Under the pieces are notes generated by a model, which had not been told where the DNA came from, did no database searches, and saw only the letters and a list, made by a program, of their open reading frames with translations. DNA of 20,063 nucleotides from Rhodoferax sp. (GTDB lineage Bacteria; Pseudomonadota; Gammaproteobacteria; Burkholderiales; Burkholderiaceae): the NCBI GenBank assembly GCA_020048295.1, contig JAIFMT010000061.1:1-20063 (forward strand), written 5' to 3'. Position 1 is the first letter of the stretch, and every line of letters starts with the position of its first letter. The position numbers were made by a program, and so were the translations under genes. Below are positions 16,237-17,786 of this stretch, one piece after another.

Positions 16237-17175
16237 TCAGGCTTTGCGGGCAGCAGGTTTTCTGGGTGCTGCGGTTTTGCCACTGGACTTGGCGGCCGCC
16301 TTTTTGGCTGCAGGCTTGCTGGGCGCGTTGACTACCAGCGTGCGAACCCGTGGTTTCGCCACAGGTTCAGCATCAAATTGGCCTGTAGCCCTTTTGGGGA
16401 TTGCGCGAGCAGCTGCTTTTTTCGTAGCAACAGCTTTAGCATCCTCGGCCTTTTTCAGCTGCGCCCGAGAGGGGAATGCCGCCTCCACACCCTTCTTGGC
16501 GGCACTGGAGCGACGCAGGCTGGCGGCGGGTTTGGCGGCTTCCTTGTCGGCGGTTGGTTTGGCAGCGCTGGCGGCCACCGGCTTGGCGGCACCCAGCTTC
16601 AGCCGCACCGGCTTGTCGCCCCACAGCTCTTCAAGGTTGTAATACGCCCGGTAAGTAGGCTGCATCACATGCACCACGGCCTGACCGCAATCCACAATGA
16701 TCCACTCGCCGTTGCCTTCACCCTCCATGCGCGGTTTGCCAAAACCGGCTTCACGCACTGCATCCATCACGCTGGCAGCCAGCGCCTTGGTCTGCCGGTT
16801 GGAGGTGCCCGAGGCGATGATCACCCGCTCAAACAGCGACGACAGGTGCTCGGTGTCAAACACCACAATGTCGTGCGCCTTGACATCTTCGAGGCCATCG
16901 ACAATGGCGCGCTGCAGCTTTTGCACGTCCTTTTTTTCAAGTGCCATGCCCGCGGGTTTGGCCGCCACTGCCTTGACCACTGACGCACCGGCTTGGCCGG
17001 CTGGCTTGCGCAGCGCACTGGTTGCCAACGGGGTCAGCGGCACGTCGGCCAGACTGGTGGGTGTTGGTACCGCAGTTTTGCCACGGCTGGCTTTTGTCGC
17101 TGGGGGGATGGCGGCTTTAACAGCCGACTTGGCGGCAGTTTTTGCGGAAGTTTTGGCAGGGGCTTTGGTAGTCAT
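16237..17175 (-). CDS. rsfS: Ribosomal silencing factor RsfS with long Ala/Lys-rich extensions
   Basis: RsfS (RsfA/Iojap family) binds ribosomal protein L14 and blocks subunit joining under starvation. The core lies at residues about 77-190 of 312: MALEKKDVQKLQRAIVDGL, DIVVFDTEHLSSLFERVIIASGTSNRQ, GEWIIVDCGQAVVHVMQ and YYNLEELWGDKPVRL. Usual family members are about 105-130 residues. Here there is an N-terminal tail of about 80 residues and a C-terminal tail of about 118, both dominated by Ala, Lys and Pro and resembling histone H1-like tails. ATG 17175 forms a TGATG junction with the nadD stop, which supports the long N-terminus; an internal ATG at 16947 would give a short, standard N-terminus but lacks a ribosome binding site. 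The C-terminal tail includes a copy of the dispersed repeat. Confidence 0.93.
   Translation of the reverse strand: MTTKAPAKTSAKTAAKSAVKAAIPPATKASRGKTAVPTPTSLADVPLTPLATSALRKPAGQAGASVVKAVAAKPAGMALEKKDVQKLQRAIVDGLEDVKAHDIVVFDTEHLSSLFERVIIASGTSNRQTKALAASVMDAVREAGFGKPRMEGEGNGEWIIVDCGQAVVHVMQPTYRAYYNLEELWGDKPVRLKLGAAKPVAASAAKPTADKEAAKPAASLRRSSAAKKGVEAAFPSRAQLKKAEDAKAVATKKAAARAIPKRATGQFDAEPVAKPRVRTLVVNAPSKPAAKKAAAKSSGKTAAPRKPAARKA
16369..16415 (-). repeat. Dispersed intragenic repeat, copy in rsfS
   Basis: On the minus strand this 47-bp segment matches the nadD copy at 36 of 47 positions without gaps (hand count), including CGCGC in the left half and an 11-base block CAATTTGATGC at the right. It is translated in the same frame as the nadD copy: RAIPKRATGQFDAEP against RAHPESAAGQFDAES. 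It lies in the low-complexity C-terminal tail, where an insertion would be tolerated. Its central inverted-repeat arms are degraded compared with the nadD copy. Confidence 0.75.
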
Positions 17176-17786
17176 CAGACAGTCTGGTAAAGGTGGTGGG
17201 CGGCAATATAACGTGCAACGGGCTCGCACACCAGATCACCAATGCCCTGGTGGGCAGAAATGCGGGTGCGGATGTCGGTGGCGCTGATGGCCAGGGTGGG
17301 CATCTTCAGGTGGACAAAATTGGCAAAACTTGCGCTTTCTGCATCAAATTGACCTGCAGCGCTTTCTGGGTGAGCGCGATCAGCTACACAAATTATAGCT
17401 GATTGAAGAATCTCCTGCCAGCGCTGCCAGCTGGGCAGTGCCCGGGCCTGATCTGCACCGATGATCAGAAACAATTGCGCCTGTGGCGCGGCGACTTTGA
17501 GCTCTTGCAAGGTGTCGATGGTGTAGCTCGGACCGCTGCGCTCAATCTCGCGCGGATCCACGATGATTTTGGGCTGGTTGGCAAACGCCAGCTGTACCAT
17601 TTCCAGCCGATGCTGTGCCGCTGTCAGCGCACGCGGCTTGTGCCAGGCCTGGCCGGTGGGAATCAGCCGCAGCGCATCGAGTTGCAATTGTTCCAGCGCG
17701 GCTTGCGCCAGCGCCTGATGCGCAAGATGGGGCGGGTCAAACGCGCCGCCCATCACGCCGACGCGCCGGATGGTCGCACCAGCCAT
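17175..17786 (-). CDS. nadD: Nicotinate-nucleotide adenylyltransferase NadD
   Basis: NadD makes nicotinate adenine dinucleotide from nicotinate mononucleotide and ATP in NAD synthesis. The 203-residue protein has the nucleotidyltransferase motif GGAFDPPHLAH (13-23), the middle DPREIERSGPSYTIDTL and LIIGADQARALPSWQRW, and the C-terminal ISATDIRTRI (the ISxTxxR signature). ATG 17786 makes a TGATG junction with the hemF stop; an in-frame TTG at 17795 is less likely. The end overlaps rsfS by 1 bp. Residues about 129-149, just after the VADRA strand and before the ISATDIR block, are encoded by a copy of the dispersed repeat, in a region that varies in length among NadD proteins. All catalytic motifs are intact. 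Confidence 0.95.
   Translation of the reverse strand: MAGATIRRVGVMGGAFDPPHLAHQALAQAALEQLQLDALRLIPTGQAWHKPRALTAAQHRLEMVQLAFANQPKIIVDPREIERSGPSYTIDTLQELKVAAPQAQLFLIIGADQARALPSWQRWQEILQSAIICVADRAHPESAAGQFDAESASFANFVHLKMPTLAISATDIRTRISAHQGIGDLVCEPVARYIAAHHLYQTV
17340..17386 (-). repeat. Dispersed intragenic repeat, copy in nadD
   Basis: This is the best preserved copy. It has a perfect hairpin with 5-bp arms (GCGCT at 17359-17363 and AGCGC at 17373-17377, 9-base loop). It shares 36 of 47 positions with the rsfS copy by hand count. The similarity may extend to about 17400, where AGCT elements flank an AATTATAGCT. It encodes ADRAHPESAAGQFDAES in the host reading frame and contributes no stop codon. 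Confidence 0.75.

Follow-up and report, generated by a model that had tools for sequence, protein, structure and literature searches.

The question raised by this locus is why nadD and rsfS, two neighbouring genes that encode unrelated proteins, share a stretch of DNA. We refer to the whole 20,063-nucleotide stretch analysed here as the window. By direct comparison, the 47-bp segments at 17340-17386 in nadD and 16369-16415 in rsfS are identical at 36 of 47 positions and lie on the same strand and in the same frame, whereas the top ungapped 47-mers from codon shuffles of the two genes (n = 300) reached 25-31 identities. The resemblance that had been noticed from the letters alone is thus real. 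The nadD and rsfS open reading frames overlap by 55 bp. We found that the true repeat unit is longer than these segments and spans 64 bp, and that nadD and rsfS share DNA because each of them carries one copy of this palindromic motif. Copies were scored with a covariance model built from 28 copies of other genomes and none from the window, and the host genes were named by NCBIfam models. All window copies above 20 bits lie within genes, and there are four of them, the number that had been claimed:

875..1813, minus strand: host gene ygfZ (TIGR03317, 93.5 bits)
1395..1458, minus strand: weaker motif copy in ygfZ (29.1 bits)
1843..2844, plus strand: host gene mltG, start uncertain (1843 or 1873) (TIGR00247, 286.2 bits)
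2218..2280, plus strand: weaker motif copy in mltG, with the tail variant GAGCCTGATTTGATCATG (24.6 bits)
16237..17175, minus strand: host gene rsfS, ribosome silencing factor (TIGR00090, 105.2 bits, domain residues 89-185)
16367..16430, minus strand: motif copy in rsfS, in its Ala/Lys-rich C-terminal extension (58.6 bits, full length)
17175..17795, minus strand: host gene nadD, nicotinate-nucleotide adenylyltransferase (TIGR00482, 177.4 bits)
17338..17401, minus strand: motif copy in nadD, with dyad 1 GCTATAATTTGTGTAGC, dyad 2 GCGCT-N9-AGCGC and tail AATTTGATGC (53.4 bits, full length to the model)

The 64-bp motif consists of a dyad GCTAT-N7-ATAGC, a linker, a second dyad GCGCTT/GCCCTT-N7-AAGCGC/AAGGGC and a tail beginning GAGGCC-N-ATTT. 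Both upstream dyads are common to 30 places fetched with the tail pattern, though they were absent from the search pattern. The median GC content of the motif is 0.41 in two Rhodoferax species. An Rfam scan of the window at gathering thresholds gave 0 matches, and no description of the motif family was seen among the papers listed in a literature search that covered few subscription journals.

We found that the motif is dispersed, in hundreds of copies per genome, in certain soil and water bacteria among the relatives of this Rhodoferax, from whose genomes, rather than the window's own, all copy numbers given here derive. The tail pattern of nadD and rsfS occurs at 42 places in six of 12 relatives, with 0 for the reversed control. 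Across 2.16 Mb examined, 191 hits represent 178 distinct sites, and the reversed sequence gave 0 hits; raw hit counts include some palindromic sites on both strands, and our figures use the distinct-site recount. Two Rhodoferax species hold 49 sites in 347 kb and 52 sites in 392 kb, which corresponds to 133-141 sites per Mb. Among 16 genomes, each scored on at most 150 candidates so that the counts are lower bounds, seven contain at least 150 matches, one contains 138, and eight contain 0-3 (two Variovorax, Hydrogenophaga, Limnohabitans, Tepidimonas, Tepidicella and two Rhodoferax MAGs). A 19-base pattern matched 153, 137, 76 and 187 times in four genomes, with controls at 0, and under strict filters with at most 44 candidates scored per genome, 30 of 120 family members had at least 20 matches and 72 had none. 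The nadD segment matched 17 plasmid records only at E values of about 3 or more, which we took as chance. The sequence-only reading had proposed a propagated palindromic element tolerated within coding sequence and had mentioned short repeats common in Comamonadaceae. A dispersed palindromic repeat family of Comamonadaceae that also occurs in genes is indeed present; the further copies on which it depended clearly exist, at hundreds of sites in relatives.

We asked where these copies lie. In the two Rhodoferax species, with genes called by a codon-usage script, 38 of the 101 distinct sites are intergenic, 36 lie across gene ends, and 27 are within genes; all 20 host proteins scanned from the last group match Pfam families. 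Sites between convergent genes are enriched, comprising 20 of 72 distinct non-genic sites compared to 7,065 of 72,279 spacer bases. Within genes, one frame is preferred on each strand (6 of 8 copies on the same strand as the gene, 13 of 19 on the opposite strand). The non-favoured frames mostly contain stops, and 68 of the 118 non-genic copies have no stop in the favoured same-strand frame. A mobile or formerly mobile palindromic element (a MITE, a REP moved by a RAYT, or a Rickettsia-type element) that inserted in spacers and genes and was later trimmed would account for a motif that is palindromic and dispersed and whose in-gene frames rank among those oftenest free of stops. Spacers with a copy also exceed the median copy-free spacer in all four gene pairs compared (10 copies), with overlapping ranges, and copies between genes may have arisen by insertion. 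The longer spacers fit such insertion, or merely the room that a 64-bp motif needs.

Insertion inside genes is another matter. The copy in maf lies in an ungapped alignment with all 73 other loci, 71 of which are without the motif; a gene weakly like HerA shows no length change across its 57 other spanning orthologues (57/57); and the mltG segment is ungapped in 14 of 14 aligned orthologues, one of the 15 genomes having given no row. The window nadD equals 46 of 75 other orthologues in length, the remainder ranging from 7 residues shorter to 8 longer. For rsfS, 26 of 78 others are equal and the remainder run from 15 shorter to 26 longer, reflecting a low-complexity tail; lengths among close kin agree within 2 residues, and further out the tail is too variable to compare. 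The ygfZ product is equal in length in the nearest 5 of 15 orthologues and variable in the others. Compared with eight motif-poor genomes, purL has 0-7 extra residues at its first copy and 7-13 at its second, tilS has 1-4 extra, and waaA ranges from 8 fewer to 13 more. A consistent gain of about 21 residues was seen in none of the host genes examined, nadD included. Aligning relatives, as the sequence-only reading had proposed, showed that nadD without the motif has about the same length and that rsfS agrees among close kin, with distant tails too variable to compare.

The 7-13 extra residues at the second purL copy also favour a mobile element. We nevertheless consider that explanation rather unlikely, given that the examined hosts show no consistent gain, that maf, rsfS and two further genes retain native residues, and that conserved motif columns and the absence of empty sites, both described below, speak against it. 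In-frame insertion into the genes examined was dropped as unsupported, since the hosts show no consistent matching gain in length, no empty sites were seen and maf keeps its native residues. The Rickettsia-like insertion that had been proposed does not agree with gapless maf, mltG and HerA-like alignments or with the lack of an empty site at 92% identity. What stands of the mobile palindromic element is a dispersed family with mostly stop-free frames; insertion inside genes is not supported. Overall, the earlier interpretation was partly supported.

We reasoned from the residues that each host encodes across its copy. Other family copies were translated in the host frame and compared with the native residues of the protein. 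A strict version of this test covered all 29 in-gene sites from the loci around hemF and from the window, of which 26 were informative and 3 had no natives; the rows of one gene are interdependent (14 nadD, 7 rsfS, 3 maf, 1 HerA-like and 1 at L009:15015). In 14 of the 26 rows no pool copy equalled the host, namely maf (3 of 3), rsfS (7 of 7), the HerA-like gene, L009:15015 and 2 of 14 for nadD. The maf host at locus L030 matched 11 of 20 native positions, compared to 6 at most for the 88 readable copies. The rsfS alignment is soft because its native residues are low-complexity Ala/Lys. A laxer test on 22 rows from part of the in-gene copies, whose native set included weakly motif-like orthologues, was passed by 16 of 18 informative rows, with one row misregistered and three without native orthologues. 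For nadD, 12 of 14 rows failed the strict test, with 2-4 of 88 pool copies equalling the host (3 of 88 for the window row), so by this test nadD may hold a pasted copy, from which it is here indistinguishable, a point in favour of a mobile element.

Scores of orthologues against the motif model are graded in rsfS (60, 44.7, 34.6, 30.8, 22.5, 17.8, 11.8, 5.5 and 5.3 bits), among the ten best orthologues of the HerA-like gene (25.5 down to 2.8) and also in nadD. In maf, scores jump, with nothing between +22 and -64.7 bits. Such an abrupt change, together with unchanged host lengths, is what ectopic gene conversion would leave if copies elsewhere overwrote partly similar stretches without altering their length. 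However, in its variable loop the L030 maf copy encodes the native Leu-Lys-Leu with altered codons, and the native residues of maf go beyond those of any pool copy, which makes conversion quite improbable. Formation in place by substitution is supported by these comparisons in maf, mltG and the HerA-like gene.

We questioned how old the copies are. The nadD copy is recognisable at the same position in Rhodoferax, Polaromonas and Ramlibacter and marginally in Variovorax, and the resemblance is also present in genomes with 0-3 motif matches. Judged by this distribution, the nadD copy is old. Orthologues from distant Burkholderiales with the same residues at both places had been named as evidence against the proposed element, and a nadD copy at the same place across genera goes part of the way there. 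One could suppose that the family originated in nadD, from which a stretch was copied out and spread; the age of the resemblance, its presence in genomes with almost no motif, and a window nadD length within a few residues of that of Hydrogenophaga nadD would suit such an origin. We regard it as very improbable, since in maf and other hosts the copies retain native residues and look pasted from no source.

The nadD copy drew attention for a further reason. Across dyad 1 (17382-17399), the codons GCT ATA ATT TGT GTA GCT vary hardly at all between genera, also where a genome has almost none of the motif family, and the rare codons are kept (ATA in 33 of 34, GTA in 39 of 43, counted in 52 species selected by a first codon GCT). 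With its TATAAT or TACAAT, the stretch is perhaps an internal promoter for rsfS.

Copies were also followed between a single pair of species at 92% identity. None of 42 comparisons, which cover both directions of that pair and are not independent, revealed an empty site: in 39 of them the copy occupies the same position with no more than 2 gap columns, 2 show larger indels, and 1 was unplaced. A query for a further stretch for this two-species comparison found no orthologous stretch. In 19 copies, high-information columns of the motif changed at 24 of 456 positions compared to 61 of 435 for low-information columns (Fisher p 1e-5), and the 40-bp flanks changed at 134 of 1517. The reverse direction gave 29 of 480 and 66 of 458. 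The difference is present in the 13 noncoding copies (15/312 against 42/297, p 8e-5) and in the 6 genic copies (9/144 against 19/138, p 0.046). Information-rich columns are thus almost three times slower to change than poor ones, which suggests that the motif is held rather than simply decaying. Taken together, unchanged lengths, kept native residues, the lack of empty sites and slow columns suggest a motif that is maintained and that was born by substitution in several genes. In-gene copies there seem to have formed base by base rather than by insertion.

We next considered what could hold such a motif. We favour, tentatively and at somewhat less than an even chance, a genome-wide 64-bp motif whose in-gene copies form in place and are held by a force, of which an uptake-like drive is the likeliest kind. 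Substitutions would convert a loosely constrained coding stretch into an ever closer match, with needed residues and protein length retained while the motif forms, and a sequence-specific force would then retain it. Under a molecular drive resembling DNA uptake, motif-bearing DNA would be taken up or recombined more often, and better matches would thereby displace worse ones at the same site. We infer that copies generally arise by substitution, and that the driving force is a bias in uptake or recombination rather than the binding of a chromosomal protein.

The binding of a protein is the main rival to this drive. Hundreds of sites for a chromosome-organising or regulatory protein, or a structured RNA or DNA signal, could likewise have evolved in place, and the two dyads, the maintained columns and the enrichment between convergent genes would all suit one. 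At one pair, moreover, a G-C to C-G change affects both arms (9 and 7 of 28 sequences, with 11 unpaired). However, the motif contains 57.7 bits, an upper figure since sites were chosen by score, compared to the 13.8 bits needed to mark so many sites. This is roughly four times what site recognition needs, and the excess suggests copying or drive rather than plain binding. The covariation score of the hairpins was equalled by 40 of 500 shuffles, and an RNA structure was set aside, its covariation not being clearly beyond shuffles. Orientation relative to the replichores is unbiased in two chromosomes (19:23 and 28:29, counted by hand on listed sites with 0-1 mismatches and with the terminus assumed opposite dnaA). 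We consider such a binding site or signal unlikely, though credible. Given the information excess, the lack of replichore bias and the precedent of uptake sequences that form in place, the uptake-like drive is favoured. A replication-strand motif was dropped for want of orientation bias in these two chromosomes. On one 347-kb contig (G002 C14), in contrast to these two complete chromosomes, distinct sites above 20 bits number 29 on one strand and 10 on the other.

Candidate machinery was compared between 20 motif-rich and 20 motif-poor genomes. ComEC is encoded in 20 of 20 and 19 of 20 of them, respectively (39 of 40), and it was dropped as a marker, the two groups being alike. A Y1_Tnp transposase gene is found in all 20 motif-rich genomes, a point for a mobile element, but also in 15 of 20 motif-poor ones; RAYT was dropped as the driver since Y1_Tnp does not discriminate between the groups. 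The motif-rich chromosome G029 contains 20 Y1_Tnp matches, several with identical score, which are probably a multiplied IS200/IS605-type element.

Among known systems, the DNA uptake sequences (USS/DUS) of Pasteurellaceae and Neisseriaceae are most alike in behaviour. They occur in hundreds of genic and intergenic copies, fall in loosely constrained parts of proteins and show no orientation bias, as here, and they are described as arising via point mutations in pre-existing sequence (PMC1939737). The same source presents them as non-palindromic (PMC1939737), and a second source gives DUS a length of 10-12 nucleotides and argues for an origin of Neisseria uptake sequences by recombination (PMC2397512). 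In contrast, the motif here is 64 bp with two dyads, and its role in uptake is putative. Rickettsia palindromic elements share with it a palindromic repeat in frame within unrelated protein genes. They measure 105-146 bp and are described as fused in frame into genes (PMC2229807), whereas the examined hosts of the 64-bp motif gain no matching block. REP elements with RAYT transposases, given as 20-40 bp (PMC3733652), are likewise short palindromic repeats of high copy number, but the 64-bp motif lies within many genes and Y1_Tnp does not split rich from poor genomes. The nearest repeat among the papers searched is BRE, described as dispersed in Bordetella, Polaromonas, Acidovorax and Rhodoferax, with some copies in coding sequences, a length of about 90 bp, 69% GC in Bordetella, some copies in tandem and at most 29 copies (PMC3110155). 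The motif here is 64 bp, has a median of 41% GC and occurs at 49 and 52 sites in less than 0.4 Mb each, so that the two differ, as described, in length, GC content and copy number.

A repeat within a gene is commonly taken for mobile DNA that has inserted; in this case substitution seems to have sculpted a long palindromic motif into at least some working genes, in the way described for uptake sequences, where it is then retained. To our knowledge, uptake specificity is known from two families, and we know of no uptake sequence of 64 bp with two dyads. If uptake bias drives the motif, uptake specificity would extend beyond those families and rely on a far longer signal; if the driver is a protein, its sites would number in the hundreds. 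A broader proposal, which we hold to be doubtful, is that Comamonadaceae possess self-recognition DNA of one more, independent kind. This would be a double palindrome of 64 bp, placed at hundreds of sites, core genes among them, through a drive biased by uptake or recombination, and it would vary between lineages and be lost from whole lineages. As a caution, selection at the DNA level can yield shared peptides in unrelated proteins.

Finally, five loci around hemF (L060, L064, L069, L071 and L073; four named Acidovorax) contain no NadD match, and a motif copy directly follows hemF in L060, L064, L071 and L073 and not in L069. In L084 and L091, a motif copy precedes a conserved NPKYVLR stretch within a gene that we take to resemble selO.
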